Part shown: one piece after another, positions 16,390-43,563 of the stretch
How the letters are laid out: each line of letters opens with the position of its first letter
How positions within the stretch are numbered: position 1 is the first letter of the stretch
Notes under the pieces: model-generated
Database searches by the model: none
What the model was told of the DNA's origin: nothing
What the model saw: only the letters and a program-made list of their open reading frames with translations
Program-made: the position numbers and the translations under genes
NCBI RefSeq assembly: GCF_003201195.1
Contig: NZ_QICQ01000001.1
Span: forward strand, 62,001-126,000
Origin: Nitrosomonas eutropha
GTDB lineage: Bacteria; Pseudomonadota; Gammaproteobacteria; Burkholderiales; Nitrosomonadaceae
Direction of reading: 5' to 3'
Length of the DNA stretch: 64,000 nt

Positions 16390-16932
16390 TCATTGCTCGA
16401 TGCCAGTGGCCGTAATCAATGCGGGATAGTGGTGCAGACCCAGCCGCTCGGCCAGATCGTCAGCCGATACAGGCCAGAGCTGCAGGCCGGGAGCCAGCGT
16501 CCGCAAGCGCTCTAGTCCTTGCATCGTCTCGACATTGACCACGAGACCCGCCGCATTGCGTTCGTGCAGACTTGCCGCATGGCGACGCAGCCAGGCATGC
16601 GACGTCTCATCGTCGCCAATTAAGAAAAACGGCTGTAGGCCCGGTGCCTCAATCACCCGACGCACAACCGCGCCCGGCGTGAGCTTCGCGCTACGCACGG
16701 GCAGCATCTGGGCTTCACCGTCGATGGTTGAAGGCAGCTGGGGAATGGGAACAGGTGGACGCTGTATGCCGCTGGTGCGCGGCTGCAGGTTAAGCGCTTC
16801 GTAGTACGGTAACGCCGATACGCCACCGCGATCTTCCACCACAATCAACGGTTCGGCTGCTTGTAGGGCTGACAAAGGTGTGGCGGTGATCAGGACGCAC
16901 AGGCCGAGCACGGCCAGAGCAATGGATTTCAT
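16390..16932 (-). CDS. ICE protein, TIGR03765 (PFL_4695) family
   Basis: A 180-residue exported protein with a signal peptide ending near 'ALQA|AEPL'. The mature chain contains 'PLIVVEDRGGVSALPYYEAL' and 'FFLIGDDETSHAWLRRHAASL'. No enzymatic motif is recognised. The start at 16932 ('MKSIALAVLG') gives a clean signal peptide and a 4-bp overlap with the transglycosylase gene; longer upstream readings lie inside that gene. Confidence 0.84.
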   Translation of the reverse strand: MKSIALAVLGLCVLITATPLSALQAAEPLIVVEDRGGVSALPYYEALNLQPRTSGIQRPPVPIPQLPSTIDGEAQMLPVRSAKLTPGAVVRRVIEAPGLQPFFLIGDDETSHAWLRRHAASLHERNAAGLVVNVETMQGLERLRTLAPGLQLWPVSADDLAERLGLHHYPALITATGIEQ

Positions 16933-20056: not shown

Positions 20057-22333
20057 TCAGGCCGCGACAAGCTGCCTGGCCAATGCTACTTCGACGGAAT
20101 CACCGTCCGGATTCAGTACATCAAGCCCAGACTCTGGCACGTCTCCCGACGTACTTTGTGAGACCAGGATCTTCTTGGCCATGAGGGTTAGGCACGTCAT
20201 CTGCGATGTGGCTGCATAGCCCAGATAGATCACCCGCACGGCTAGCTTTTGGCCGATACGCCATGAACGGCGTGCAGCCTGCTGCAGGGTGTACACGTTG
20301 TAGCCCGACTGCATGAATACAATCGTGGGGAACTCCAGAAGATCCAGCCCCGTCTTGACTAACTCGGGATTAGTGATGAGGACATCGATACCCCGATCAA
20401 GCTGCTCGGCAATCCAGTCCTCCCGGCGTGAAGCATCTACGCTTGCGCGCAATACCGCCACCTTGAAACCTTCCTGCTCCAGCAATATCTTCAGACGCGA
20501 GGTGGTGTCGCGTGTGCCGGTATAAACGGAATAGACCAAGGTTTTACGTCCTGCAGATTTTTCCTCCCTGCAGATGTCGATCAGCTCGCGCTCCTTGGGC
20601 ATGATTTCCAGTTCGTTAAACTGAACTGGTGTGAACGCTAGCACCTGACGGGTACGCGGATGACGAACTGTTTCCGCTCTGAAGCAACAGTCGGACCAGG
20701 CCAGCAATACATTAAGTACAACGCCCAGCAAGGTGGTATCCCGCTTGCGCAGGGCTTCTTTGAGTGCCGAAGTCAGGTTTGCAGCCAGACTGCTGTAGGT
20801 ATCGCCTTGTTCGGCATCCATCTCGACTTCCCGAAATTCCTCGACATACGGCGGCAGTATGCCCCCCATATCGCGAAGTTTTAGGAATATCGTGTACGGC
20901 AGGATGCAACGCAATACGCCCTTCGGACCAAAACCTGGGGCTTTGACCGTTCGTACTGAAACCTTGCTGCCCTTGGCGGTCTTGTGGGCCGGCCCGTCGG
21001 TCTCGGAGAAAATGTCTTTCAGAACGCCATGATCCCGCATGAAGGCCATCGCGGCCGAACTCATGCTGCCGCTGCTGCTTGGACGGTAGCCATCTTCAAT
21101 CATTCGCCCAGGCAATGCCCGGAATAGAAGGTGAAAAAGATCGTCCGCGTAGCCGCCCATGAGCGTGCCGGTTAACAGCACCGTCTTACGGACCTTGGCC
21201 GCAATCACCCCCATTGCCTGACCTTGCGCTGAACCGCCTGTCTTGTACTCATGCGCTTCATCAGCGATAAGCAAGTCGAACGTGCCTTGTGGCAAGTAGC
21301 GTTTGACATACTCGGAGGCCTGATAGCCACCTTCACCAAAGCCGAACTCCATACTGGACATCGCGCGTTCCATCCGTTGCGCTTGCCGATCAGAGAACAC
21401 CAGCTCTCCTCGGTCATCCATCAAATTGATGAAGTTGTGGAGATTGTCCCCGAGCATCGAGGCCAGGAAGCTGTCACCGAACATCTTCATCAGTTTTTGT
21501 GCGGTAGCCTCACCGATGGTTGGAATACGCTTTAAAGCGCGAAGCACTGCTGAGGATTGATCGTTGCCGGATAATGTTCTAGGACGCATCAACGTCCAGA
21601 GTGCTTCGGTGCAGACATTGCACTTACGACGAGTTTCTTCGGCCTCCAGCTCCAAGGCATTGATTGGCTCGCCATCGAGGTCGGTGATTTCCGTCCCACA
21701 GTGTGGGCAGGCCCCGATGACGCCATCGCGTGTCCGTTTACGCATAAATGCGGGTTTCCAGTGAAAACCCATGCGCATACGGACCCGACCAATAATGAAA
21801 AACTCCTGACCCGTCGGCTCCTCGCCCATTTGCTCGCGCAGCTTGATGAGCTTGAGCAAGGTATCGGGGCCATTGAGCACCCATACCTTGGCGCCTGCGA
21901 CGGTTTCCAGAATTTCCCGGCGCCACTTGTAAACCAGATGGGGCGGGCTCAGAACCAGGGTGCGGCGATAGCCTTCCGCATTGAGAACGGCTGCCAGCGC
22001 AATGCCGACAATGGTCTTGCCGGTGCCCATCTCGCCATTGATGATCGCGGCGCGTTCGCCTTGATTCACCAATAACTCCGCTGCCGCATGCACGACTTCG
22101 GCCTGAGCCGGGAAAAGCTGACGTTTGAGGGCTGCGAGCACCAATTGACGCTCGGGCCGAGGCGTACCGTTATAGACAGGCGGGTTGGCCCGGTTCAGGC
22201 TGTCCAGCAGTTCGTCGCCGAACTCCTCGACGAAGTCCTGCAAGCTGAACGACAGTTCCGACTCTGCGACATCTGCCTGCTCGTCGGTGTGGATGGTTTC
22301 TGCGACAGTTGTCGCTTCGAGTTGCGTATTCAT
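20057..22333 (-). CDS. SNF2/DEAD-box superfamily 2 helicase
   Basis: A 758-residue SF2 helicase. Walker A is GEMGTGKT (residues 100-107), followed by 'LVLSPPHLVYKWRREIL' (motif Ia), 'LLIADEAHEYK' (DEAH box), 'VLLTGTLMGG' (motif III) and C-terminal 'QQAARRSWRIGQ' (motif VI, SNF2 style). A zinc-ribbon-like Cys cluster ('CPHCGTEIT...CNVC') interrupts the first domain at about residues 210-245. The start at 22333 follows a GGAG site; a longer reading from 22372 would run into the leader hairpin. ICE-borne helicases of this type are common but their role is unknown; DNA repair or replication after transfer is inference. Confidence 0.88.
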   Translation of the reverse strand: MNTQLEATTVAETIHTDEQADVAESELSFSLQDFVEEFGDELLDSLNRANPPVYNGTPRPERQLVLAALKRQLFPAQAEVVHAAAELLVNQGERAAIINGEMGTGKTIVGIALAAVLNAEGYRRTLVLSPPHLVYKWRREILETVAGAKVWVLNGPDTLLKLIKLREQMGEEPTGQEFFIIGRVRMRMGFHWKPAFMRKRTRDGVIGACPHCGTEITDLDGEPINALELEAEETRRKCNVCTEALWTLMRPRTLSGNDQSSAVLRALKRIPTIGEATAQKLMKMFGDSFLASMLGDNLHNFINLMDDRGELVFSDRQAQRMERAMSSMEFGFGEGGYQASEYVKRYLPQGTFDLLIADEAHEYKTGGSAQGQAMGVIAAKVRKTVLLTGTLMGGYADDLFHLLFRALPGRMIEDGYRPSSSGSMSSAAMAFMRDHGVLKDIFSETDGPAHKTAKGSKVSVRTVKAPGFGPKGVLRCILPYTIFLKLRDMGGILPPYVEEFREVEMDAEQGDTYSSLAANLTSALKEALRKRDTTLLGVVLNVLLAWSDCCFRAETVRHPRTRQVLAFTPVQFNELEIMPKERELIDICREEKSAGRKTLVYSVYTGTRDTTSRLKILLEQEGFKVAVLRASVDASRREDWIAEQLDRGIDVLITNPELVKTGLDLLEFPTIVFMQSGYNVYTLQQAARRSWRIGQKLAVRVIYLGYAATSQMTCLTLMAKKILVSQSTSGDVPESGLDVLNPDGDSVEVALARQLVAA

Positions 22334-22352
22334 GGTGATGCTCCATAAAAAT

Positions 22353-22390
22353 GGGGCATGCACCTCCCCCAAGGGGCGGTGACATGCCCC
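22353..22390 (-). promoter_or_regulatory. Leader hairpin 1 (upstream of the SNF2 helicase gene)
   Basis: RNA sense is minus. A near-perfect two-part hairpin: outer stem GGGGCAUG / CAUGCCCC, inner stem CACC-G-CCCC with loop UU and GGGG-GA-GGUG. It ends 19 nt before the start codon. It is the clearest member of a repeated family found before most genes from 22 to 32 kb. Confidence 0.8.
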
Positions 22391-22436
22391 AGGGGGATAA
22401 AAGTTAGATGGCGGCCAAAGCCCGCCGTGGGTGGAA

Positions 22437-22748
22437 TCAGTACTCGCTGGGCAGGAGCAGCGTGGTCACGCTGCGATCCCATTCAGTAATGATCCAGAGT
22501 TGCAGGGCTGATTCGACCTGATAGGAAGAGAACAGGCGATCCTGGCCCGATGCCAGCGCGGCATCGTTCAACTGACGATCGCCTTCGACGAGATCTCCCC
22601 AGTCGCCGCCAAGGTGGCGGCGTAGGTACATGCTGGGGTTGAGTCGGCCTTGCTGGATCAACTCGTGAACGCCAACCGTCAAAATCAATTGGCCTGGCGA
22701 AAAGCGCATATTCGGTACCACGCTAATGAATAGTGCTTCGGTTGCCAT
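22437..22748 (-). CDS. Conserved ICE/plasmid accessory protein of unknown function
   Basis: A 103-residue soluble protein. The segment 'LRRHLGGDWGDLVEGDRQLNDAAL' followed by 'LQLWIITEWDRSVTTLLLPSEY' is typical of a widespread plasmid and ICE protein sometimes mislabelled as a restriction subunit; nothing in the sequence supports an enzymatic role. The start at 22748 has AGGAG nearby. It has its own leader hairpin and lies 103 bp upstream of the helicase gene. Confidence 0.75.
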   Translation of the reverse strand: MATEALFISVVPNMRFSPGQLILTVGVHELIQQGRLNPSMYLRRHLGGDWGDLVEGDRQLNDAALASGQDRLFSSYQVESALQLWIITEWDRSVTTLLLPSEY

Positions 22749-22784
22749 GGTGATAGCTCCTAAATGAGAAAGCCGAAGCGATGG

Positions 22785-22815
22785 CACCCATCGGGCGGCA
22801 TGGCCCCGGTGGGTG
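22785..22815 (-). promoter_or_regulatory. Leader hairpin 2 (upstream of the 103-residue accessory gene)
   Basis: RNA sense is minus. Outer arms CACCCA and UGGGUG pair around a GC-rich interior with GGGGCC. It is less regular than its relatives and ends 36 nt from the start codon. Confidence 0.55.
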
Positions 22816-22844
22816 GATGAAAGTGGTGGAGGCGTGCCCTAAGA

Positions 22845-23954
22845 TCAATGAATAGTGAGGATCTGACCCAGCGTGGCTGAGTCGGGCGTCAAGTCCCAAG
22901 CCCTGATAACGGGCACGAACTTGTCGGTGAGGATGCGCGTCTCGGCCACAGAGCCGTCATCGCGTTCGCGATACTCGGTGGCGGTGGCTTTCTGCTTGTA
23001 GGTGTCGCCCTTGACGGCCAGGATACGACCGCTTTTAGACTGCACGACACCTGAGATGGCGCCCGCCGCCAAGGCCAGCGCCAAGTGCCAGTGAGATAAA
23101 CCGCGTGCTGGAGGCCGCATGGATTGTTGAGCGGCGCCCAGATGGGTCTCGCTCGATGGCCATAGCCCCTGCAGGCGCTGCACTTCCTCGGCAAACTGCG
23201 CCGGCTCCATACTGATCCGGTAAAAATGCGCCGGCTCGGCCTGTGCGGCTGGGATGCTGTAGGGCAACGCGGTCCATGCAGGAGGGAGCTCCTGCGCTTC
23301 GATTTCAGCTTGTCCGACCTGTAGCAGCCGGGCACGGATGGACTTGACGTCATCCCCCGCCAGCTCACGCTGGCGAACTCGACGCCCGAACACGACAACC
23401 TGTTTGAACTGGGTATCCACCGCACGGTAGACGCTCAGATCGGTAAAGTGCCGTGTCAGCCATCCAACCATTTCCTGATCAAGGACGTAGGACGGGATGA
23501 TAAAAACCAACACACCGCCATACTGCAACTGCGGCAGCGTCTTCTGGTAGAACAACTTCTCAAGCCGGGCGCGGCCCCTGCCTTCGTAGCCCATGTTGCC
23601 GTTGGCGTCTCGGGCGAGATCACCGTACGGCGGGTTGAGCCACAGCAGGCCGAAGCACTGGCGTGTGATTAGCGTGTCCATTAGATCGCCATGGATGCAT
23701 CGATCAACCAGTCGGCGGGCATGGTCTGCCCGTTCCTGGTCGTATTCGACCGCGTAGGCGGTGACGTGCTCACGCCCGAGGGCGTGCGCAGCCTCCGCAA
23801 TGGCGACACCTTCGCCAGCGCAAGGATCAAGAATGCATATCGGTCCATCACTGGGCGCGAGAGCGTTGAGAGTTCGTTCAAGCGTGGCTTCGTCGGTTGG
23901 GTAATAGCCGTTTTTGGCAAAATTCCGAGCGAGCCGGGGGAACATGAGAGCCAT
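22845..23954 (-). CDS. DUF6094-type putative N6-adenine methyltransferase
   Basis: A 369-residue protein with a Rossmann methyltransferase start: 'ICILDPCAGEGVAIAEAA' (AdoMet motif I, about residues 38-55), an acidic strand end 'AYAVEYDQERADHARRL', and the catalytic NPPY in 'LLWLNPPYGDLARD' (about residue 105), the mark of N6-adenine or exocyclic-amine methylation. The C-terminal half is unassigned. The start at 23954 gives a standard N-terminus ('MALMFPRLARNFAKNGYYPTD'). No restriction enzyme is adjacent, so it may protect the ICE or modulate its DNA. Its own leader lacks the hairpin seen at neighbouring genes. Confidence 0.8.
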   Translation of the reverse strand: MALMFPRLARNFAKNGYYPTDEATLERTLNALAPSDGPICILDPCAGEGVAIAEAAHALGREHVTAYAVEYDQERADHARRLVDRCIHGDLMDTLITRQCFGLLWLNPPYGDLARDANGNMGYEGRGRARLEKLFYQKTLPQLQYGGVLVFIIPSYVLDQEMVGWLTRHFTDLSVYRAVDTQFKQVVVFGRRVRQRELAGDDVKSIRARLLQVGQAEIEAQELPPAWTALPYSIPAAQAEPAHFYRISMEPAQFAEEVQRLQGLWPSSETHLGAAQQSMRPPARGLSHWHLALALAAGAISGVVQSKSGRILAVKGDTYKQKATATEYRERDDGSVAETRILTDKFVPVIRAWDLTPDSATLGQILTIH

Positions 23955-24028
23955 GGGAAAATCTCCTGTTTGGCGTGGATGAGTCAATGCGAATACGGGC
24001 GAGCAGCACGCATCTGCGGGTAAAAGCG

Positions 24029-24688
24029 TCAGGCCACCGCTTCCAGTGGCCGGTTGGTCGCTGCCGATAGCGGCGCTGGATAGGCGGTGAGCACGTCCTG
24101 GCGGATGAGATCGCCCAGTGCGTCGGTGAGAAGTGGTACGTCCAACCCCAGATGAAAACCCTGCAACGGCCCGAGAGCCAGTGGCAGTGCCTTGAGCATT
24201 TCCCGATCGCGTAGCAGCGCCAGTACAGGCGCTTGCCAGTGCTCCAGAAGCGGCAGCGGGCACGTGTCCTTGACCAGGCGCCACAGTCGGGCGGTGGGAT
24301 CGTTAGTTGAGCGTGGCAGCAACGCGAGGGCGCTGGCCGTACTCTTTTCAGGTTGGGTGCAGCGTCGGTCGAACAACCAAAGGTTGGTCATTGAACCGAA
24401 CAGCGTGCGGCGATAAGCACGGGTGAGGCGCTTTTCCAGACGATCGACCGCGCCGACCGAGACCGGGACAGAGCCCCCTTGGTCGGTGATGAGATGGAAT
24501 TGATCCAGCCCATCTTCGGCGCGGCCCAGGGTCAGGCGAGCGATGAATTGCTGGATCGCGGTATGGCGTGCCCAGACGGAGAGAAAAATGAACTCGCCTT
24601 GCTCGTTGCACACGCACGCATCGGCCATCAGGTCGCTGCATTCGTCGATACGGTACAGCACGGGAGTTTGATTAGATGATGGGAGCAT
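24029..24688 (-). CDS. Conserved ICE accessory protein, function unknown
   Basis: A 219-residue soluble protein beginning 'MLPSSNQTPVLYRIDECSDLMADACV'. It has no transmembrane segment, signal peptide or catalytic motif that I recognise. A hydrophobic-leucine-rich C-terminal part ('LPLALGPLQGFHLGLDVPLLTDALGDLIRQDVL') suggests a helical fold. It has a strong leader hairpin at 24708-24741 and lies in the accessory block between unknown genes and the DUF6094 methyltransferase gene. Confidence 0.7.
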   Translation of the reverse strand: MLPSSNQTPVLYRIDECSDLMADACVCNEQGEFIFLSVWARHTAIQQFIARLTLGRAEDGLDQFHLITDQGGSVPVSVGAVDRLEKRLTRAYRRTLFGSMTNLWLFDRRCTQPEKSTASALALLPRSTNDPTARLWRLVKDTCPLPLLEHWQAPVLALLRDREMLKALPLALGPLQGFHLGLDVPLLTDALGDLIRQDVLTAYPAPLSAATNRPLEAVA

Positions 24689-24707
24689 AGTGGTGTCCTC
24701 AAGAAAA

Positions 24708-24741
24708 GAGACAGCACCGCCCCAAGGGCAGTGACTGCCCC
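24708..24741 (-). promoter_or_regulatory. Leader hairpin 3 (upstream of the 219-residue accessory gene)
   Basis: RNA sense is minus. Outer stem GGGGCAG / CUGUCUC and inner stem CACUGCCC / GGGCGGUG with a UUG loop, ending 19 nt before the ATG. Base changes relative to hairpin 1 keep the pairing, which is evidence for conserved RNA structure. Confidence 0.8.
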
Positions 24742-24852
24742 GTATGGGATGAAAGAACGCGGATTACTCGGATTGAGTTCTCAGCCGCGAGTCAAATTAC
24801 AGCGCATCGCCGGAAAGGCGAACCGGTAAAAACAATCGCTTCACATAGAGAT

Positions 24853-25194
24853 TCAGAGCTCTCGTTCGGTAAACGAACCGTCAGTCTGATGCTTGGCTAC
24901 GCGGTTACCGGTATAGCTTTCTCGGTCACGCTGGACCTGGATGAACATGCTCTCGGGTACGCCAATCTGAAAATGGCGCAAGACTTCTCTGTAGTAGTCC
25001 AGGCCATGATTGAACGGATCGCTCTCGTGCAGATTGCTATACAAGAAGTCATCGCTCTCAACCTTCATGGTGTCGTCGATCAATTCGGCCGGCTTCTCGA
25101 CGACCAAGAAGTAGTAATCCATCGGCCGGTCCCAGCCGAGTAGGACGGTGATGGGAAATCCCTTGTGAAATGTATCGAAGTAGTGCCGACTCAT
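24853..25194 (-). CDS. Small ICE accessory protein, function unknown
   Basis: A 113-residue soluble, acidic protein beginning 'MSRHYFDTFHKGFPITVLLGWDRP' and ending 'VAKHQTDGSFTEREL'. The segment 'HESDPFNHGLDYYREVLRHFQIGVPESMF' has no motif I can place. The start at 25194 has GGAG seven bases upstream and a leader hairpin above it. Longer readings lie in the leader and the next gene. Confidence 0.7.
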   Translation of the reverse strand: MSRHYFDTFHKGFPITVLLGWDRPMDYYFLVVEKPAELIDDTMKVESDDFLYSNLHESDPFNHGLDYYREVLRHFQIGVPESMFIQVQRDRESYTGNRVAKHQTDGSFTEREL

Positions 25195-25216
25195 GCTGAA
25201 GCTCCTAGATTGAAAT

Positions 25217-25250
25217 CGCCAGGAACCTCCCCATCGGGGTCGCCCCGGCG
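25217..25250 (-). promoter_or_regulatory. Leader hairpin 4 (upstream of the 113-residue accessory gene)
   Basis: RNA sense is minus. Outer stem CGCCGGG / CCUGGCG (one G-U pair) and inner GACCCC / GGGG-A-GGUU with a GAU loop, 22 nt before the start codon. Confidence 0.75.
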
Positions 25251-25298
25251 GGTGTGTGAAGTAGCCGCGTCTGCGGCGATGAAGTGACGTGCCAGCCT

Positions 25299-25646
25299 TT
25301 AGTAGTCCGAATCGCAACCGGCCGGGCAACAACCCAGTGTGATCCCGTGTGTGCAAATGCCGTTTGCAGCATTCCAGTCCTGGGTTTCCTGCCTCTGGGC
25401 AGGTGTTGCGTAGTCCCATTCCTGTGCTATTTGCAGAGCTTGTGCGCGCTGGTATTCGGGCAATTGATCAACTTGTGCATCAATCTCCGAACTGAAGCGT
25501 TCAACGTAGTAGTCGTAAGAGAGACCGCAACCCTTGATGGCTTCGTCGGCTGCGGCGTCGCAGACAATCCGCCAGGCTGGCTCATCCAGCGCAGAGCGGG
25601 TATCCCCAATGGGGTGTGACGATGTATTGCAAGCAATGATTGACAT
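25299..25646 (-). CDS. Small ICE protein with cysteine-rich C-terminus, function unknown
   Basis: A 115-residue protein with seven cysteines. Five of them crowd the last 20 residues ('ICTHGITLGCCPAGCDSDY'), which suggests metal binding or disulfides. No signal peptide is present, so a cytoplasmic metal site is more likely than a disulfide fold. The rest is helical with 'PEYQRAQALQIAQEWDYATPAQRQ'. It has a leader hairpin and GGAG before the ATG. I do not recognise the family. Confidence 0.65.
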   Translation of the reverse strand: MSIIACNTSSHPIGDTRSALDEPAWRIVCDAAADEAIKGCGLSYDYYVERFSSEIDAQVDQLPEYQRAQALQIAQEWDYATPAQRQETQDWNAANGICTHGITLGCCPAGCDSDY

Positions 25647-25668
25647 GATGCAGACCTCCAGAAAGAAA

Positions 25669-25704
25669 CCAGAGCCCTCCCCCCGGCGGGAGAAGTGACC
25701 CCGG
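25669..25704 (-). promoter_or_regulatory. Leader hairpin 5 (upstream of the cysteine-rich accessory gene)
   Basis: RNA sense is minus. Outer stem CCGGGGU / GCUCUGG (with G-U pairs) and inner CUCCC / GGGAG region, 22 nt before the start codon. Confidence 0.7.
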
Positions 25705-25742
25705 CGGGTGGTTGAAGAACACCGTGGTTGCGGTGCCTGTGA

Positions 25743-26414
25743 TTACGCAGGTTGTGGTTCGGCCTCGCGGCTCCACTCTTGCGCCTTGAAGTCCAGTGCA
25801 TAACCCAGCTCGCCCAGGCGGGCGATCTGCGCGCGTAGGGTGCGGCGGTCGATGGTCGAATCCAGTTTGATGGAATCCTCCAGCGGCCACAGCAATCCGA
25901 ACAAGGCCGCATCGTCGCTGTCCGGGCCGCCAGAGGCGGCGACGACAACCGACGGTGCATCCATACCAAAAGGTGTGGTATCGATCAATGGGTCTGACGA
26001 TGCGTGAACCGGCGTTGCTTGCAACGTGGACGCGGTGACCGATGTTGCTATCGGCTGCGTCCCCTGTTCCTCATCGAGTGGATCAACTTCCTGTGCGGCG
26101 AAGCTCTTGGCATCGTCGCGGCTTAGTTCGTCCAGACCTGAGAGGGTCATCCCGTCCAAGGAGGCGCGGATCTCGAAACGCATCCCGCCACCCGTTGGGT
26201 AAGCCCTCGGGTAGATGTACTTTATGAGGAATTCCCCGTCGTACTTACCTTCGGGATATTGCTCCAGTTCAGCGTCTTTGACCTCGAACACCCCAAGATG
26301 CGTGGTCAGGCGACCGACCGTGAACGGTCCATTGCGGCCTCGGATGGTGCGCAGCGTGAGCTGGCCCGAAACGACGATAGGAGAAGTGCTTGAACGTGCA
26401 ACCGTAGTAGACAT
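25743..26414 (-). CDS. DUF3275 family ICE protein
   Basis: A 223-residue soluble protein. The N-terminal DUF3275 region includes 'VSGQLTLRTIRGRNGPFTVGRLTTHLGVFEVKDAELEQYPEGKYDGEFLIKYI', and a Ser/Thr/Asp-rich disordered linker leads to a conserved C-terminal helical segment ('LRAQIARLGELGYALDFKAQEW'). The family is confined to ICEs and related islands and has no known function; beta-strand content suggests ligand or nucleic-acid binding. The start at 26414 follows GGAG; the next gene upstream is the DUF3577 protein. Confidence 0.82.
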   Translation of the reverse strand: MSTTVARSSTSPIVVSGQLTLRTIRGRNGPFTVGRLTTHLGVFEVKDAELEQYPEGKYDGEFLIKYIYPRAYPTGGGMRFEIRASLDGMTLSGLDELSRDDAKSFAAQEVDPLDEEQGTQPIATSVTASTLQATPVHASSDPLIDTTPFGMDAPSVVVAASGGPDSDDAALFGLLWPLEDSIKLDSTIDRRTLRAQIARLGELGYALDFKAQEWSREAEPQPA

Positions 26415-26445
26415 GAGGTAGCTCCTTGTGATGAATGTGCAAATG

Positions 26446-26472
26446 CCCACAACCACACGGGGTGGTTGCGGG
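26446..26472 (-). promoter_or_regulatory. Leader hairpin 6 (upstream of the DUF3275 gene)
   Basis: RNA sense is minus. An 11-bp stem CCCGCAACCAC / GUGGUUGUGGG with a CCCGU loop, 31 nt before the start codon. Simple rather than two-part. Confidence 0.75.
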
Positions 26473-26521
26473 CCATAGGGGAAGAAAGAACAAGTCCCTG
26501 GGGTGGGCCTAGTGAGTCAGA

Positions 26522-27436
26522 TCAGAACGAAGTTGCCATTGCAGGCTCGTCGGTCTGCGGCTGCTGCTCCATATCGGATTGAGTGAGCTCGGAAAGCGTT
26601 GAGTCGTCGCTATCACTTACATGGCCTGTGCCCTCTGCCGCCGAAGCGTCTTCGGATACGGGTGCCAGGTCAACAGCCGGATAAACCTGCTGACCATCAA
26701 CCTTGATCAGGCTGATGTGGACCAGGTTGGACTTCAAGGACAAGGCTGCTTCGCCTGCGCGATCACCCTTGATACGAAGGTACGGATCGGTCTTCATGTC
26801 GTTAAGACGGAAGGCGATCAGCACTTTGCGTTCGGCCACTACAGCCTCTACGCAGCGACGCACCAGGTGCTGGGCGTCGATGGTCGCGACGATGGTATCG
26901 ATGTACCGATAGTCCGGTTCCTCGACAGGCCCGGCCAAGGCGCCAATGGAGCATGACAGGAACGGGTCGCCATTTTTTGGCGCCACCTCCTGGGGACGGT
27001 TCAGATACCCAATGCCTCGGGTGATCAGTTCATGCTGTTCGATTTGTGCCAGTTCGGCACGATCAATCAGCTCGACTTTGAGTAGTCGGCCTTTAAGGCT
27101 TCCGGCTGGCTTGCCCTTATTCTCGCCGCTGGGACGAATATAGGGATCGCCCCAGAGGTCGCCGATCCGAAAGCGGATTAGGGGCCGCTGTTTCGGGTCA
27201 TCAACACCGACGTAACGCTGCACTAGTGTCTTGGCATCAGCGCCAGAGACTTTGAGGTCAAAATAGCGCAGCATCGAGTCCTTGGCGGGACCAACCAGCG
27301 CGGCGACGGTGCATGCGAGGAAAGACTCGGCACGACGCCCGCCTCGCACGGGTACTATCCGGACGCGCTGCAGATAGCCAATACCAGAGGTATGCAGATC
27401 AAAGTAGGACTTCGTATTGGAAGAAGCTTGGTTCAT
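26522..27436 (-). CDS. STY4534/DUF3577 family ICE protein with internal duplication
   Basis: A 304-residue soluble protein containing two copies of one domain. The first has 'SGIGYLQRVRIVPVRGGRRAESFLACTVAALVGP' and the second 'RGIGYLNRPQEVAPKNGDPFLSCSIGALAGP', each followed by 'YFDLKVSGADAKTLVQRYV' or 'YIDTIVATIDAQHLVRRCV' and a DPY-containing strand. A single-domain form of about 150-200 residues is what I recall as usual, so this looks like a tandem duplication. The C-terminal 40 residues are acidic and disordered. Single-stranded DNA-binding-like behaviour has been suggested by the fold style; that is inference. The start at 27436 follows GGAG. Confidence 0.82.
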   Translation of the reverse strand: MNQASSNTKSYFDLHTSGIGYLQRVRIVPVRGGRRAESFLACTVAALVGPAKDSMLRYFDLKVSGADAKTLVQRYVGVDDPKQRPLIRFRIGDLWGDPYIRPSGENKGKPAGSLKGRLLKVELIDRAELAQIEQHELITRGIGYLNRPQEVAPKNGDPFLSCSIGALAGPVEEPDYRYIDTIVATIDAQHLVRRCVEAVVAERKVLIAFRLNDMKTDPYLRIKGDRAGEAALSLKSNLVHISLIKVDGQQVYPAVDLAPVSEDASAAEGTGHVSDSDDSTLSELTQSDMEQQPQTDEPAMATSF

Positions 27437-27459
27437 GGTGAATCTCCATTGGATAAGAA

Positions 27460-27503
27460 GCGGAAGACACACCATGCCCAAAGCGGCAGGTGCGTAACCC
27501 CGC
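27460..27503 (-). promoter_or_regulatory. Leader hairpin 7 (upstream of the DUF3577 gene)
   Basis: RNA sense is minus. Outer stem GCGGGG / CUUCCGC and inner CACC-U-GCC / GGC-A-UGGUG, 23 nt before the start codon. The region 27504-27757 above it (254 bp) holds no gene; a 6-bp palindrome at 27641-27655 is unremarkable. Confidence 0.7.
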
Positions 27504-27749
27504 GATGGGTTGAGAAAGGCAGCTGCATCACCACCAGAAAAAACTGGCAGTCGTTCGCGCGTGGATGCGGTGCGAACTGGTGTGGTCACGCGGCAGGTGT
27601 CGCGCCGCAACCTTAAAGACCAATGGTTGCCCGGCATGTCGCTGACAACGTCAGCAATCATGGGGTAAGGGTTGCACCATGCCCACTGAGACGCCACCGT
27701 CAATGTGTGATCACACCGGACCGTATAGGCCGCAACAAATGGAATCACC

Positions 27750-27782
27750 AAGAAACAAGCCCCCGATGGTTGGTCGGGGGCT
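27750..27782 (-). terminator. Rho-independent terminator after the 271-residue accessory gene
   Basis: On the minus strand, a perfect 9-bp stem AGCCCCCGA / TCGGGGGCT (27758-27782) with a 7-base loop is followed by TTGTTTCTTGG. It lies 18 bp past the stop at 27801 and splits the accessory block into separate transcripts. Confidence 0.82.
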
Positions 27783-27800
27783 GAGATAGGCACAGGTTGG

Positions 27801-28616
27801 TTAGGCAGTAGAAGAAAGCGCTTTCTTGCTGCGGGCCGGCTTTTGCAAGGTCTGAACACGAATGCGACGCCAGGTACCGTCATCAATCAGATCGGCCAAG
27901 GTCTCCCCCAGCATGTCGAAATAGATGTCGTCGCGGCGCTCTACCCGCTCATCGTCGCGATGCAGTGCCACCGCATAGGCGTCGTCCGCACGCATATAGA
28001 TTATGCTGACGCGTCCCGAGAACTTCGCGGTTTGAACTGTGAAGCTCACCGTGGGCGGTGTCCGGATGATGTCTGCAGGTCTTGGGTCAACGAGTTCGAA
28101 GTCACGCGCCTGGGCGTCGACCAGCATGTGAGCGATCCGCCGATGCCCATCGGGGGCAGGCATTTGCTCCAGTTGCTCGATAAGCTGTTGCAACTCCAGA
28201 CTCTGGGGCTGCGCAACGGGCAATTTGGCCGGTGCCGCACCCAGGATCATGCGTTGCACGGTGTAGGGTGTACCGTCTGCCGTTTGTTTGATGACCTCTT
28301 CCGGTGTATCGGCACGCTGACCGTCGAAACGACGACGTGCATAGGGTATGACTTCGATCTTGGCTCCCTCTTCGGGAACCTCGGTTACGAGCGTACGATC
28401 CAGAACCGCGAACTTCGTTCGACTGATTTTGACAACGATGGCGTCCTCAGTGGTAGCGACAACCTTACCCTCAAAGGGCGACGGATCAACGTGAAAGCCC
28501 AGCATGTTCTCCTTCGGCTTCCCGTCGAAGATGTTGAACTGAAAGGATCGTGCGTTGCTTGGCACATGGCCGGCAACCAGAGAAGGCATTTGTTGACGAA
28601 TGGTTTGATGATCCAT
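27801..28616 (-). CDS. ICE accessory protein, function unknown
   Basis: A 271-residue soluble protein. An N-terminal beta-rich half ('FHVDPSPFEGKVVATTEDAIVVKISRTKFAVLDRTLVTEVPEEGAKIEVIPYARRRFDG') is followed by a helical middle and 'VSFTVQTAKFSGRVSIIYMRADDAYAVALHRD'. No catalytic or membrane motif is recognised. Homologues occur in other ICEs of this type, judging by context only. A terminator follows it and a leader hairpin precedes it, so it can be expressed separately. Confidence 0.7.
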   Translation of the reverse strand: MDHQTIRQQMPSLVAGHVPSNARSFQFNIFDGKPKENMLGFHVDPSPFEGKVVATTEDAIVVKISRTKFAVLDRTLVTEVPEEGAKIEVIPYARRRFDGQRADTPEEVIKQTADGTPYTVQRMILGAAPAKLPVAQPQSLELQQLIEQLEQMPAPDGHRRIAHMLVDAQARDFELVDPRPADIIRTPPTVSFTVQTAKFSGRVSIIYMRADDAYAVALHRDDERVERRDDIYFDMLGETLADLIDDGTWRRIRVQTLQKPARSKKALSSTA

Positions 28617-28636
28617 GATGGAGTCTCCGATAATAC

Positions 28637-28670
28637 GGAACCCCTCACCCCCATAGGGATGAATGGTCCC
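28637..28670 (-). promoter_or_regulatory. Leader hairpin 8 (upstream of the 271-residue accessory gene)
   Basis: RNA sense is minus. Outer stem GGGACC / GGUUCC and inner UCAUCCC / GGGUGA with a UAU loop, 20 nt before the start codon. Confidence 0.75.
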
Positions 28671-28867
28671 TTGGGGTTGGAATGGACGATGAGCGTCCGG
28701 AGATGAGATCAGCCAGCGAACTGTAGGTTCGCCGCAGTCTTGATGGCCTTGACTGCCTGGGATGCTGCCAGCTACGCCAGCGAACATGTTTTAAGGATGG
28801 GGCAGCGACACAATATCGTCTGTTATGAAACAGATGCAGTGTTCATCCGCCTTCCAGCCATGCAGAC

Positions 28868-28892
28868 AAAAAAAAGCCCCTGGGTAAGGGGC
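28868..28892 (-). terminator. Rho-independent terminator after the DUF5983-like gene
   Basis: On the minus strand, GCCCCT / AGGGGC (28876-28892) forms a 6-bp stem with a 5-base loop and is followed by eight T residues (28868-28875). It begins 12 bp past the stop at 28905. Confidence 0.88.
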
Positions 28893-28904
28893 GAATGAGA
28901 AAAT

Positions 28905-29621
28905 CTACATTTCATAGACTGGAAGACCGTCCAGTTCCGGTGCGTCAGCGTCGATAATTAGGATGCGCACGTCGGCGTTGGCCGCTAGGTGCAGCACTCG
29001 CATCAAATCCTCTGGCATGCCTTTGGACAGATGTTTCTCGCGCAGTTGCTCGGCGGTGATACCGTCAATGCCCAGCAGATGCTCATCCGTCCAAGGGGTG
29101 GCAATCAACTTGACGCCAATGGCCGGGCTGTATGGCATCCGAAAAGCGATAAACATGAACCCGGTTGGCGTAGCAATATCGGCCAAATCGCGCAAATATC
29201 GCCCTGATTCCTCGGTGATGTGAGCTGTGCTGATTTCCCAGGCGCGGCTGTAGACGCCGGTCTCGAATTTCAGACGATGTACCACCTCGCGGGCAGCTTC
29301 TTCGGAATAGGTGTCGCCCACATGCAGCGGCTGGCCGTCGAAATCGTCGGCGGCGATGGCGTAGATCACTGTGCGCACGATGCCTTCACCCTGGCACTGA
29401 GCTTCCAGTTCGTCGGGCACGTCCTGGCCTTCGGTGATGAGCGCGAAGTCCTGGCCGAATAGGCAAGGAAACAAGGCAACCTCGCCATCGGAAAGATGCG
29501 TCTGGCTGGCATGTAATGGCCGCCAGATTGGCGGGCAATCATCCTCGTAGGTGATGAGCAACGTTCGCACAATGTGCGGGTTCTGATAGCCGCGAGTGAA
29601 AGGATTCTCGATCTTGGTCAT
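28905..29621 (-). CDS. ICE protein with DUF5983-like C-terminus, function unknown
   Basis: A 238-residue soluble protein. The C-terminal 'DVRILIIDADAPELDGLPVYEM' matches a motif found at the ends of several plasmid and ICE proteins (DUF5983). The central part ('FETGVYSRAWEISTAHITEESGRYLRDL') resembles the same family. The N-terminus holds 'DGQPLHVGDTYSEEAAREVVHRL'. It is flanked by its own leader hairpin and a terminator, so it looks like a monocistronic unit. Confidence 0.72.
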   Translation of the reverse strand: MTKIENPFTRGYQNPHIVRTLLITYEDDCPPIWRPLHASQTHLSDGEVALFPCLFGQDFALITEGQDVPDELEAQCQGEGIVRTVIYAIAADDFDGQPLHVGDTYSEEAAREVVHRLKFETGVYSRAWEISTAHITEESGRYLRDLADIATPTGFMFIAFRMPYSPAIGVKLIATPWTDEHLLGIDGITAEQLREKHLSKGMPEDLMRVLHLAANADVRILIIDADAPELDGLPVYEM

Positions 29622-29645
29622 GGGATTTCTCCAGCAGAGGGATAG

Positions 29646-29680
29646 CCAAGGCCAATCCCCTGCCGGGGATTGAACCCCGG
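29646..29680 (-). promoter_or_regulatory. Leader hairpin 9 (upstream of the DUF5983-like gene)
   Basis: RNA sense is minus. A perfect inner stem CAAUCCCC / GGGGAUUG with a GGCA loop and an outer stem CCGGGGU / GCCUUGG with G-U pairs, 24 nt before the start codon. Confidence 0.8.
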
Positions 29681-29821
29681 TGGGTGGAAAATGCATAGCG
29701 ACCGCTCAGGTCGCGTCGTTACTTGATCAATCGTGAAAGTCGATGGTGTCGCCCCTCCCCTTCCTGCACCACCGTAAATATGGTTGCGCATACGGTGATT
29801 ACGCAACGCATGCGGCAAGGG

Positions 29822-30385
29822 TTAAGACGGGTGATCACTCAAGACATAGCGCTTCCATAAAGCGAATGCCTCATCTGGCGGCAGTTCAGCCAGGATGACG
29901 ATGGGCAAGGTATGTCGTGCGCGCAGGGCTGTGAAATACGCGGGTCGGTCTGTGATCGTCTTCAGCTTGACGCCCTTCAAAAAGAGCAGCTTGCCATTCT
30001 TGATGAACAACACCTTATTGCCGATGTCGCGAGTGAACGCGGTGCGCAGCTTACGATCAGTGTGCTGGGTCTCGGCCAAATGATCGACGAGAAAATCCAG
30101 CGTCATGTTGATGATTAGGGGAGCGTCGTCCTGACCGGTGATACCCCCTTCGAACCGGGCCGGTGACAGACCTTTGGCAAACTGTCCGGCTTCGGACAAT
30201 TGCGCAGCCTTGCCTTCCAGAGCATGCAGAAAGGTCGAGCCTCCACGCCCGTCGTTGCGTGCTTGGGCAATGGCGACACCGTCGAACAGCACGATGGCGG
30301 TGAAGCACAGCGTCTCTTCACTGGCGAACTGCGCCACTTTGAGGCTCTTCAAGGCAATACGGTCTTGCTTAATGATGGTTTCCAT
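29822..30385 (-). CDS. ICE accessory protein, function unknown
   Basis: A 187-residue soluble protein beginning 'METIIKQDRIALKSLKVAQFASEETLCFTAIVLFDG'. It has a Gly-rich turn ('ARNDGRGGSTFLHALEGKAAQL') and ends 'FALWKRYVLSDHPS'. No catalytic motif is recognised. The start at 30385 has an AGGA site and a leader hairpin. Confidence 0.7.
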   Translation of the reverse strand: METIIKQDRIALKSLKVAQFASEETLCFTAIVLFDGVAIAQARNDGRGGSTFLHALEGKAAQLSEAGQFAKGLSPARFEGGITGQDDAPLIINMTLDFLVDHLAETQHTDRKLRTAFTRDIGNKVLFIKNGKLLFLKGVKLKTITDRPAYFTALRARHTLPIVILAELPPDEAFALWKRYVLSDHPS

Positions 30386-30417
30386 GGAGATTCCTATGAT
30401 GGGGTCGAGTGAGGGCA

Positions 30418-30433
30418 CGCCCCTGGCGGGACG
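30418..30433 (-). promoter_or_regulatory. Leader hairpin 10 (upstream of the 187-residue accessory gene)
   Basis: RNA sense is minus. Stem CGUCCC / GGGGCG with a GCCA loop, 32 nt before the start codon. Only the inner part of the two-part structure is clear. Confidence 0.6.
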
Positions 30434-30629
30434 AGACACTTACTCAGTAGGTTGGAGAAAGAGGCATCAATACCCGCATGGGCAACGTTCGCCGGTGTGA
30501 TGCGTGTGCGAACTGGCGGGTTGCATGGGGAAGTCCCACGGCAGCCTGCAAACCCTGGCTGCTGGCGGTTGCTGAAGTTTCAGCAAGTCAGGGCTATAGG
30601 GTGGCCTTGCGAGTCCAATAAATCGCGCA

Positions 30630-32123
30630 TCAATACGCGCCAGGTGCTTCCTCTTTTGCGAGATGTTGTATCAGACGGTGCCCCAGCCAAGCCACACACG
30701 GCACGGCCATGGAGTTTCCGATCGCCTTGTAACGCTGGGTATCAGTTGCGGGCTTGCCGCGATATGGCACTTGGGTGTAGTCGTCCGGCATGCCCTGCAA
30801 GCGCTCGCATTCCACTGGCATCAGCCGACGCACCCGCCACTGCGACCAGTCGCTGGCACTTGGCCTATTTCCGGTGTACTGGAAGTAGGTGTCATAGTCG
30901 GGTATCAGCACGTGGTTTTTGTCACCGCCGCCACTGCTGGCACGCAGAGCCGGTGCGACGGTGCCTCCCAGCTCGGCGGCGATGCCGTGGTCGCGACCAC
31001 GCAATGCCACGCTAAGCACCATGGGCAGGCCCTGCCCGGGCTTGCCACCGCCCGTCGAGAGCGCACCAGCGATCTGCCCGTGGCCGGACTCCAAGCGCAA
31101 CTCGCCGCGAGAGTTCTGTGCAAACGCCATGGCTTGCCGCGCATAGGTGGTGATGATGGGTACGCCCCTGCCCGTGCCGTCTTCGCTGCTGCCTGTGGAC
31201 GTGCCCAGCGTGTGGCTGATGTCACCCGCCACAGACTGCACCACAAAAGTTTCAACCTCAAAGTCATTCTTAGGGCCTGCGGCAGCTGTTAGGCAAGCGG
31301 CGACATCAATCGGCCCCGAGGTGTTGCCACCACCAAAGCCGAACGTCACCCTGACCTTGTCATAATGCTGATTCAGTCCGACATAGTCGCCTGGTGATGC
31401 AGTGCTTGCTCCAGCAGCACAGGCAGCGTCTTGCCACGGCGCAAAGCCCTGCGAAGAATCCCCGTGCAAGCCGTCGCGCTCAAAAAGTACTTCGGCGGGA
31501 TCGACGTCATTTCGACCACTTGCCACAAGAAACACGCGTTTGCGACGCTGGGCGACACCGAAATGTTGAGCGTCGAGCACGCGCCAGGCGAGGCGGCGCT
31601 GGGGGCCAGACACGTAACCTGCGTGCGTCCATTTTGCCCCTGGCGGCTCGAGCGCGCGGCTTTCTCCGGCCAGTGCGCCCAGCAGGCAGCCAAAGGCGTT
31701 GGAGCGGTCGCTAAGGACACCTGGGACGTTTTCCCAGATGATCGTGGCGGGCGGACGTTGATTTTTTTGGCGAGTTTGGTCGATGGCATTGGCAAGCTCC
31801 ACATACTTAAGGGTTAAGGCGCCACGCGGGTCAGAGAGTCCCTGACGTGCACCGGCGATGCTAAACGTCTGGCAAGGGGTACCGCCCACGAGAATGTCCG
31901 GGGCGACAACTAGGCCCGCTCGCACCTGCTCGGCGATCTGTGTCATATCGCCCAGGTTGGGCACGTCGGGGTAGCGATGGGCGAGCACGGCGCACGGGAA
32001 CGGTTCAATCTCGGAAAACCACGCGGCTTGCGGGCCTTGTGGTTGCCACGCGAGACTCACGGCTTCAATGCCACTGCAGACGCTGCCGTATTGCAGCGTA
32101 GTGTGGGTAGGCTGAGGGTGCAT
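30630..32123 (-). CDS. dcm: DNA (cytosine-5-)-methyltransferase, Dcm family
   Basis: A 497-residue C5-cytosine methyltransferase. Motif I is 'GSVCSGIEA' (residues 13-21), the catalytic PCQ is at 83-85 in 'GGTPCQTFSIAG', and ENV is at 131-133. The motif VIII-type 'GVAQRRKRVF' lies near residue 210, and the motif IX/X region near the C-terminus is 'KAIGNSMAVPC'. The target-recognition region spans about residues 230-440. No restriction endonuclease gene is in the neighbourhood, so it is an orphan. Likely roles are shielding the incoming ICE from host restriction. The symbol is used for the family only. Confidence 0.9.
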   Translation of the reverse strand: MHPQPTHTTLQYGSVCSGIEAVSLAWQPQGPQAAWFSEIEPFPCAVLAHRYPDVPNLGDMTQIAEQVRAGLVVAPDILVGGTPCQTFSIAGARQGLSDPRGALTLKYVELANAIDQTRQKNQRPPATIIWENVPGVLSDRSNAFGCLLGALAGESRALEPPGAKWTHAGYVSGPQRRLAWRVLDAQHFGVAQRRKRVFLVASGRNDVDPAEVLFERDGLHGDSSQGFAPWQDAACAAGASTASPGDYVGLNQHYDKVRVTFGFGGGNTSGPIDVAACLTAAAGPKNDFEVETFVVQSVAGDISHTLGTSTGSSEDGTGRGVPIITTYARQAMAFAQNSRGELRLESGHGQIAGALSTGGGKPGQGLPMVLSVALRGRDHGIAAELGGTVAPALRASSGGGDKNHVLIPDYDTYFQYTGNRPSASDWSQWRVRRLMPVECERLQGMPDDYTQVPYRGKPATDTQRYKAIGNSMAVPCVAWLGHRLIQHLAKEEAPGAY

Positions 32124-32672
32124 TTGGGTTTCTCCTATTCGTAAGGGCCAACACTGACATCGGCTTGCCCGGGAGGTAGTGGTAAGGCAGGAGAAAGAAG
32201 CCGAAGACCCTTAGGCCTTCGGCGCGGGAGGAAGTCACCACCCGTGGGCTGATCCACGTTTACGGTCGTCGCTAGAACCGTCCGTTGTCACAGCAATCAC
32301 ACCCGGCCCATGTCGTGGCTGGGGCCGGCATTGTCTGGCGCACATCCGCGCACAAAGGGAGCCCGTTATTTCACCGGCGGGCACCGGCACCGATTACCGT
32401 CAACCCCGAAAGGTCTCCTGGTGCCTCGCACGACGACGCGGCGGCAAAATACCAGGGGACCCATCGCAGACGACGGAAATAGCAACGATCAAGGGAAAGC
32501 GCATGGAGCGATTCACGTAAAAGCATCCTTCCTGCCTCGGCCGCCGTTTCCGGCGTGACGAGACGCGCACACGGTTGCAGAAGAATTTGCGCGCTGGGAG
32601 TCCCGAGAGGGCTACGGGACGAATGCCATGCAACCGAGTCGGTCTGCACGGCACTGAGGGGTTTGGAGCATT
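32124..32672 (-). other. 549-bp gene-poor stretch between topB and the methyltransferase gene
   Basis: The first 100 bp is the methyltransferase leader, with GGAG before the ATG and a 7-bp hairpin GCCGAAG / CUUCGGC at 32200-32223. The rest (32224-32672) shows only an unconvincing 92-codon minus ORF (32371-32649) lacking recognisable homology or a good start site. No terminator for topB was recognised. Confidence 0.45.
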
Positions 32673-43375: not shown

Positions 43376-43449
43376 GGCGGGGTGGCAGAGTGGTTATGCA
43401 GCGGCCTGCAAAGCCGTCTACGCCGGTTCGATTCCGACCCCCGCCTCCA
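43376..43449 (+). tRNA. tRNA-Cys (GCA)
   Basis: Acceptor stem GGCGGGG / CCCCGCC, 7-base anticodon loop CTGCAAA giving GCA, a T-loop TTCGATT, and encoded CCA at 43447-43449. It lies 106 bp past attR and 25 bp before tRNA-Leu. Upstream of it the sequence has a 6-bp hairpin (43339-43359) of unknown meaning. Confidence 0.95.
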
Positions 43450-43474
43450 TACATATCAGAAGTGCTTCGTAATT

Positions 43475-43563
43475 GCCCGGGTGGTGAAATTGGTAGACAC
43501 AAGGGACTTAAAATCCCTCGGACATAAACGTCCATGCCGGTTCGATTCCGGCCCCGGGCACCA
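43475..43563 (+). tRNA. tRNA-Leu (UAA)
   Basis: Acceptor stem GCCCGGG / CCCGGGC, anticodon loop CTTAAAA giving TAA (UAA), a long variable arm (CGGACATAAACGTCC region), T-loop TTCGATT, and encoded CCA at 43561-43563. Probably co-transcribed with tRNA-Cys. Confidence 0.95.

Follow-up and report, generated by a model that had tools for sequence, protein, structure and literature searches.

Candidate two-state RNA leaders precede accessory genes of a Nitrosomonas eutropha conjugative element and its relatives

Background

A stretch of 64,000 nucleotides from Nitrosomonas eutropha (assembly GCF_003201195.1, contig NZ_QICQ01000001.1, positions 62,001 to 126,000; G000:C1:62001-126000 in our numbering of a genome of 2.67 Mb in 85 contigs), here called the window, carries a conjugative element. 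By our reading of the open reading frames (ORFs) the element has type IV secretion system (T4SS), helicase, dcm and par genes, and also encodes DUF6094, DUF3275, DUF3577/STY4534 and DUF5983 genes, DUF3577/STY4534 being named "ICE replication protein" (ICE, integrative and conjugative element) in NCBIfam. GC-rich hairpins stand before the start codons of many of its accessory genes, which raises the question of what these hairpins do. A preliminary description, made from the letters of the window alone, counted ten of them as one series, added a simpler one before a methyltransferase gene, and proposed a shared post-transcriptional control. Our results suggest that the hairpin is one of two alternative folds and that, as far as the modelled structures indicate, each of eight leaders is probably a standalone two-state translational on/off element.

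Two alternative folds in eight leaders

The GC-rich hairpins are present on the minus strand, where recomputation places them at 22352-22391, 22773-22809, 24708-24741, 25217-25250, 25668-25705, 26445-26473, 27460-27503, 28637-28670, 29646-29680 and 30406-30446. The leaders of eight genes, those starting at 22333, 22748, 24688, 25194, 25646, 27436, 28616 and 29621, share a larger layout. From 5' to 3' it consists of a U/C-rich single strand, C1 (CCC), G1 (GGGG...), about 8 nt, C2 (CCCC), 3-4 nt, G2 (GGGG), C3 (...CCCC), a U-rich spacer, the Shine-Dalgarno (SD) sequence GGAG and the AUG. In fold II, which is the hairpin of the preliminary description, an outer G1:C3 stem encloses a C2:G2 hairpin, leaving the SD unpaired. 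In the alternative fold G1 pairs with C2 on a base of C1:G2 (hairpin I), while C3 and its 5' neighbour pair with the region from the SD to the start codon (P3). That the 3' arm of the hairpin also pairs with the SD region, and that the element extends 5' to C1, had not been noticed in that description.

In the helicase leader fold II reads UGGGGCAUG-u-CACC-g-CCCC-uug-GGGG-a-GGUG-CAUGCCCCA, and P3, which spans SD to start codon and forms with hairpin I, reads GGUG-c-AUGC-c-CCAU-uuuu-AUGG-a-GCAU-CACC-AUG. The same topology is found in other letters at L135:4864 (UUUGGGUUC..GAACCCAAA) and at L132:1266 (GGUCUGUCC..GGAGACAGACC). The stretch 5' of region 1, U/C-rich with an A at its end, is conserved though unpaired, and the terminal A is present in 54/60 flanks of a second leader set (see below); because of this conservation the flank is a candidate trigger site, as judged from sequence. 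The motif UUUUUCAACC, which recurs in the P3 loop of two leaders (L071 and L073), resembles this flank, a likeness hinting at a shared binding site.

A covariance model, R1, was built from an alignment (A1) of 22 helicase-gene leaders and widened once with 80 hits (A3) to give R2. The training rows of R2 include the window leaders 22334 and 24690 and orthologs of other window leaders, and at least two are reverse-strand matches; its E-values are rough. R2 matches all eight leaders (E<=0.011), the opposite strand of the first, and one doubtful region. In the following list, "on" and "off" are the energies of fold II and of the SD-hiding fold in kcal/mol, and the fraction gives how many of 10 dinucleotide shuffles, in which the SD was kept and the upstream sequence shuffled, reach the observed two-state score.

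22334-22402, minus strand: candidate switch leader of the SNF2/DEAD-type helicase gene (20057-22333); R2 E 2.6e-16, the leader also being in the training set; fold II at 22352-22391, SD at 22341-22344, the alternative being hairpin I with P3 over SD to start codon; on -32.0 (-32.8 in a separate estimate), off -39.5; 0/10
22749-22820, minus strand: candidate switch leader of gene 22437-22748 (no family); R2 E 0.0052; on -19.8, off -22.4; 1/10
24690-24755, minus strand: candidate switch leader of gene 24029-24688 (no family); R2 E 2.4e-9, a training-set member; on -23.8, off -27.3; 0/10
25195-25259, minus strand: candidate switch leader of gene 24853-25194 (no family); R2 E 0.0005; on -20.7, off -29.8; 0/10
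25647-25715, minus strand: candidate switch leader of gene 25299-25646 (no family); R2 E 0.00046; on -25.6, off -27.4; 0/10
27437-27515, minus strand: candidate switch leader of the DUF3577/STY4534 gene (26522-27436), directly 3' of a radC RNA; R2 E 0.011; on -25.2, off -30.0; 0/10
28617-28682, minus strand: candidate switch leader of gene 27801-28616, whose product matches a KfrB domain below threshold; a radC RNA match runs into this leader with its 3' end; R2 E 0.0016; on -20.4, off -30.9; 1/10
29622-29691, minus strand: candidate switch leader of the DUF5983 gene (28905-29621), with the weakest evidence of the eight for an SD-hiding fold; R2 E 0.00036; on -23.9, off -24.3; 0/10
30374-30458, minus strand: doubtful, perhaps degenerate member before gene 29822-30385, 3' of a radC RNA; R2 E 1.4; off -10.1
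26445-26473, minus strand: hairpin before the DUF3275 gene (25743-26414), a non-member in this copy; no R2 match; off -11.3

Eight leaders of the proposed ten-member series thus fall into one family. The hairpins at 26446 and 30418 exist, the first without a match and the second with a doubtful one, and neither has a strong SD-hiding fold. The methyltransferase hairpin (32200-32223) is not a member: it lies about 76 nt before the start codon, is terminator-like and has no R2 match. The hairpin at 26446, the DUF6094 and dcm genes, both operons (T4SS and par) and the chromosomal DNA of the window are all free of R2 matches. For the DUF6094 gene and the two operons this agrees with the description; one T4SS gene (16390-16932) attains the raw two-state score (-20.0).

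Partner-specific pairing with the ribosome binding site

Taken alone, leaders of this kind fold only moderately unusually (z -2.3 to -0.8 for ten listed leaders, 300 shuffles each), so that significance rests on the set and its relatives. Relatives of the element were collected through a DUF3577 protein scan (seven named loci, L005-L011) and through DUF3275 (13/369 genomes of the class, 4/398 of the phylum, 43/248 of one family and a further 1/7). Forty stretches were fetched, giving 47 element loci, and the leaders of 12 orthologous genes were extracted. Removal of leaders at least 92% alike left 251, of which 241 had an SD that could be recognised; these were put through a descriptor search. 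Its filters, a hairpin of -15 kcal/mol or lower, at most 46 nt long and within 26 nt of the SD, select for the hairpin and not for SD pairing; 164 leaders passed, 157 of them with a single hairpin loop. The partner-swap tests used 140 leaders (nine families), and the folding-order, U-tract and leader-peptide tests used 128 (eight families).

In the swap test the C3 of each leader was paired with its own SD region and with those of other leaders. C3 pairs better with its own (-12.21 versus -9.02 kcal/mol, z -14.3, 0/2000), also when partners are swapped only among orthologs (z -8.4, 0/2000) and when the SD core is left out (-4.33 versus -2.86 kcal/mol, 0/2000; within families 0/2000). For 142 control leaders with a hairpin 5' of the SD, taken from 20 arbitrary regions of such genomes, z is -0.1. 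A second set from other elements, found with R2, which does not model P3, and reduced to 49 leaders by removing those at least 85% alike, gives z -10.1 for C3:SD and -6.3 without the SD core (both 0/5000). The pairing G1:C2, which excludes fold II, is partner-specific as well (z -12.4), as is C2:G2 (z -15.7), both measured without a control run; G1:C3 (z -25.9, controls -16.4) was used for detection and is hence not counted. These values bear on the idea that nothing switches, the hairpin being a passive 5' stabiliser or ribosome spacer and the SD complementarity having some other cause. GC-rich hairpins near start codons do occur elsewhere, the 142 control leaders being examples, and the SD is predicted to be mostly paired in non-member genes too. 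A passive hairpin nevertheless leaves unexplained an own-versus-swapped difference that appears in two leader sets, is absent from the controls and persists without the SD core, and we regard this reading as very unlikely.

Covariation in the A1 sequence alignment points the same way. For fold II it is 0.302 versus 0.159 in shuffled alignments (0/500) and at most 0.090 when the pairing is slid; for P3 it is 0.206 versus 0.115 (0/500) and at most 0.097 when slid. Double-change cells number 29 in fold II (9.8 expected) and 19 in P3 (7.2 expected), both 0/500. Eleven of the 17 fold II pairs are changed on both sides among the 22 helicase-gene leaders, in keeping with the earlier remark that both arms vary together while pairing is kept. 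A DNA-level element could also be imagined, with two CCC-n-GGG palindromes about two helical turns apart acting as operators for an element-encoded repressor, and C1-n-G1 and C2-n-G2 are indeed each near-palindromic. Pairs outside the palindromes covary, however, a third segment pairs with the SD region, and the spacing to the start codon is tight, the SD starting 8-13 nt before the AUG; operators of this kind are already disfavoured, and we give them hardly any credence.

Comparison of the sequences indicates that both folds and the SD pairing are conserved. The leaders would accordingly be of the general SD-sequestering bistable kind, in which a conserved pairing between an upstream segment and the SD excludes a second conserved fold. 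The preliminary description was right in reading the hairpins as RNA structure rather than DNA repeats, given covariation and partner-specific SD pairing in two sets and their absence in controls. It was also right in seeing a shared leader motif, which sits directly before start codons and has homologues in related and less related mobile elements; covariation and homologous hairpins in related ICE leaders, whose lack would have spoken against the description, were both found. Of the shared control that it proposed, the post-transcriptional level is what the position of the modelled pairing suggests, while only one of two folds had been seen and the members had been over-counted.

Folding order and direction of control

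In the shuffle test 29/33 helicase leaders score better than all ten of their shuffles, as do 23/23 of DUF3577, 23/34 of gene 24029-24688 and 7/7 of gene 24853-25194. The same holds for 20/35 leaders of DUF3275, 10/36 of DUF6094 and 1/7 of dcm, and in the remaining families for 5/7, 15/25, 10/15, 10/20 and 1/5. Among controls the figure is 9/131, near the 9% chance expectation (of 325 genes 160 were sampled, and an SD could be recognised in 131). For the other four genes of the window cluster, three to seven of 10 shuffles reach the score. The raw two-state energy score was rejected as a detector, being unspecific in GC-rich DNA, and was replaced by shuffles and covariance models. A median OFF-minus-ON difference of -4.1 kcal/mol (157 leaders) was likewise set aside since it allowed tiny SD hairpins beside fold II.

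Folding of growing transcripts, for the 128 leaders and for 47 leaders of the second set respectively, gives hairpin I as the minimum free energy (MFE) structure before C3 emerges in 118/128 and 37/47, fold II before the SD emerges in 110/128 and 41/47, and the SD-hiding fold once SD and AUG are out in 82/128 and 40/47; the complete series is seen in 67/128 and 27/47. Of the eight window leaders, seven adopt fold II before the SD emerges and six end in the SD-hiding fold. The MFE structure of 25647-25715 stays fold II, both in this test and with longer flanks, and at full length that of 29622-29691 is neither fold.

Translational control is our preferred reading, since what the conserved alternative pairing covers is precisely the region from SD to AUG; the switching itself, its translational effect, the sequence of steps and the trigger are inferred. 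Fold II would be the ON state, with the SD open to the ribosome, and hairpin I with P3 the OFF state, with the ribosome site hidden. During transcription hairpin I would form first, then fold II just before the SD emerges, then mostly the OFF fold once the SD to AUG region is out. A new mRNA could thus be translatable at first and become silent later unless it is held open, for which a ribosome, or a factor on C1 or on its single-stranded U/C-rich, A-ending flank, are candidates. Such leaders would keep genes silent, gene by gene, save for a short burst or a signal. As a tentative extension, they might be self-timing, passing from hairpin I through translatable fold II to silent hairpin I with P3, so that establishment genes are translated mainly from fresh mRNA, with radC RNA as an upstream biasing module. 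A burst after entry or excision would then be followed by automatic silencing without a regulator protein.

Several results weigh against the translational switch. The base of hairpin I, C1:G2, gives no partner-specific signal in the 140 leaders, and the specificity of G1:C2 has no control value beside it. Although 7/12 P3 pairs are changed on both sides, 20/500 shuffles reach this number, and in the DUF3577 alignment (MAFFT) P3 is nearly invariant and shows no covariation. A raw score of -20 or lower is found in 47/325 control genes versus 196/921 ICE genes. The full-length MFE remains fold II in 41/128 leaders; the leaders used for the folding order are short and were selected by the strength of fold II, a bias towards that fold at the middle stage, and the energies are 37 C model values that describe the thermodynamics of prefixes, not kinetics. 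When the upstream flanks are lengthened and 18 coding nt are added, the MFE structure contains P3 in no more than 4/8 window leaders (22333, 25194, 27436 and 28616). It remains fold II for 24688 and 25646 and is another structure for 22748 and 29621; that the OFF fold is weakened in four of the eight lowers our confidence. The SD is predicted to be mostly paired (mean unpaired probability 0.00-0.35) in each of the 12 genes of the cluster, whether or not it belongs to the family, so that SD accessibility does not separate the two and was dropped as a mark of membership. A trigger was sought among antisense sites in the window and none was found: the plus strand holds no clear partner, only scattered one-mismatch sites, one to the first motif and six to the second.

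The U-rich tail after fold II also weighs on this side, since transcription might terminate or pause there. In the first 8 nt past fold II there are on average 4.16 U versus 1.51 in control hairpins, and 60/128 leaders have at least 5 U there versus 4/142 controls; a simple scan finds terminator-like sites in 24690-24755 and 25647-25715. The leaders could then be transcription attenuators, fold II with its U tail being an intrinsic terminator and hairpin I (G1:C2) the antiterminator, with an element-wide antitermination opening the cluster. Processive antitermination has been reported for a Gram-positive ICE, Tn916 (PMC11658703). Attenuation would leave the partner-specific C3:SD pairing unexplained, 68/128 leaders lack such a U tract, and the tail runs straight into the SD (median 10 nt), and on balance we think it unlikely.

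Occurrence in other mobile elements

In 20 control regions (398 kb at arbitrary places of element-carrying genomes) the best R2 match has E 4.7, and R1 has none at E<=1. Among 369 genomes of the class, R2 matches 30 at E<=0.01 per genome (about 4 expected by chance), 23 of them at E<=1e-4; six of the 30 (G000, G021, G122, G125, G242 and G262) had supplied training leaders. The 30 comprise 11 of the 13 DUF3275-positive genomes and 19 others, and several have many matches (11 in G223, 9 in G279, 8 in G107). Twenty stretches chosen around hits in 16 of these 19 other genomes gave 82 matches, 76 of full length. In the A3 and A4 alignments 138/155 full-length matches abut an ORF start, 101 of them exactly, versus 733/4000 random positions. 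In seven named plasmid regions 34/38 plus-strand matches end within 4 nt of an annotated coding sequence start, and pKLC102 carries the switch, with 8/9 matches at annotated starts in the 20.6 kb searched (both hand counts).

Proteins downstream of matches in the 20 chosen stretches were scanned (59/64; 25/37 families are listed, and many proteins have no family). Among the matches listed are 9 RadC-like proteins, 6 DUF3577, 3 ArdC N-terminal domains, 3 DUF6573, one each of an ArdB/KlcA-type antirestriction protein, a cytosine methylase and RecT/Bet, together with an AAA ATPase and PRTRC proteins; each further listed family is represented once. By these sequence assignments, the switch often precedes putative establishment genes (RadC, DUF3577, ArdC). 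ArdC genes as such were rejected as its mark, six other ArdC-like plasmid regions being without a match (0 in 53 kb, E<=2). All nine DUF3577-positive genomes of a 175-genome sample fall among the 30 switch-positive ones; DUF3577 is absent from 11/30, which led us to reject it as a trans factor, and it is at best a companion of the switch. One genome has three apparently near-identical switch-bearing copies with the same scores (G247:C2 near 1502000, 3136000 and 3491000), and in all three the match to DUF3577 continues across one TAA.

Relation to radC RNA

The preliminary description had not noted that three leaders of the cluster carry radC RNA (RF01754), a family reportedly listed since 2010.

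27525-27672, minus strand: radC RNA, 103.5 bits (gathering score 40), directly 5' of the DUF3577 switch
28645-28798, minus strand: radC RNA, 73.2 bits, 5' of and overlapping the switch at 28617-28682
30464-30602, minus strand: radC RNA, 56.9 bits, 5' of the doubtful member at 30374-30458

A switch lies within 30 nt 3' of, or overlaps, 17/22 radC RNAs by hand count (window, L009, L010, L057, L150 and L156), one of the 17 at R2 E 1.4. Of the eight switches in the window, six stand without a radC RNA, and radC RNA occurs in 2/369 genomes (E<=0.001) versus 30/369 for the switch, figures on which we rejected it as a required partner. The two are found in the same kind of mobile elements and differ in sequence and fold. 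Where both occur, the switch is likely the expression platform of radC RNA. RF01754 does not cover the switch above its gathering score, save for the overlap at 28645-28682, and apart from this overlap no Rfam 15 family lies over a switch in the window at gathering score. In 17 other switch-bearing loci the only Rfam matches are radC, which in some overlaps the switch, and group II introns, the latter at L071:2574-2723 and 368-445, near the helicase gene of a related element. A weak match of sbcD RNA (RF01757) to the helicase leader (20.9 bits, E 1.7) stays below the gathering score of 40. A fourth radC RNA lies in the source genome at G000:C1:60506-60661, and Castellaniella sp. S9 (G370) carries ten in its genome. 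In the literature searched we found no mechanism for radC RNA; in a term search of Weinberg 2010 (PMC2864571) radC appears once, in a table row, without a function.

Comparison with known systems

In translational riboswitches the expression platform consists of mutually exclusive sequestering and anti-sequestering stems. The switch shares this logic, but no conserved aptamer-like core was seen in it: letters vary while pairing is kept, and outside the pairs only the short U/C-rich flank ending in A is conserved. In translational attenuators of the ermC type, 1:2 and 3:4 pairing alternates with 2:3 pairing and the SD lies in the last stem. The pairing logic is again shared, but those attenuators have a short ORF translated over the first stem, and the switch leaders show no such leader peptide: an AUG-initiated upstream ORF with an SD-like site occurs in 1/128 leaders versus 8/128 shuffled ones, a count that makes leader-peptide control unlikely. 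The folding hierarchy resembles that of type I toxin mRNAs such as hok and aapA3, the latter described as having metastable folds that control the SD and are increasingly stable during transcription (PMC6733600). As far as that source goes, transient folds hide the SD there, whereas the predicted transient fold II of the switch frees it; the switch also differs in being local to the 5' end and in recurring before numerous genes other than those of type I toxins.

In the open-access literature, among the titles and abstract openings of the papers listed, we found no description of such leaders, and their novelty is provisional. Our data suggest an uncharacterised layer of gene control across a broad set of conjugative elements, pKLC102 included, with anti-restriction, recombination, replication and still unnamed genes under such leaders. 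They give radC RNA a concrete candidate expression platform. Since the putative switch is compact and occurs in tandem series, it would be a natural laboratory for co-transcriptional folding.

Neighbouring features

Many leaders have a small extra GC hairpin just 5' of the U/C-rich flank, after the upstream stop codon (for example 25264-25277 and 25720-25735, minus strand). It is of the type GCCGC-AGAC-GCGGC, its letters differ between leaders, and it may act as terminator of the gene before it or protect that gene's 3' end. Left of the window a further copy of the switch (G000:C1:59787-59865, R2 E 0.042) precedes a gene that, by ORF reading, adjoins a RadC-like gene. On the opposite strand within the T4SS region, gene 12594-13412 (plus strand) encodes a protein that presumably resembles TIR-like nucleotide-binding defence effectors, and the gene product at 51272 is one that we take to resemble cytochrome P460. 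Tandem tRNA genes at 43376-43446 and 43475-43560 (plus strand) lie just past the par-side genes of the element, and this pair (43376-43560) is a plausible integration site of the element.

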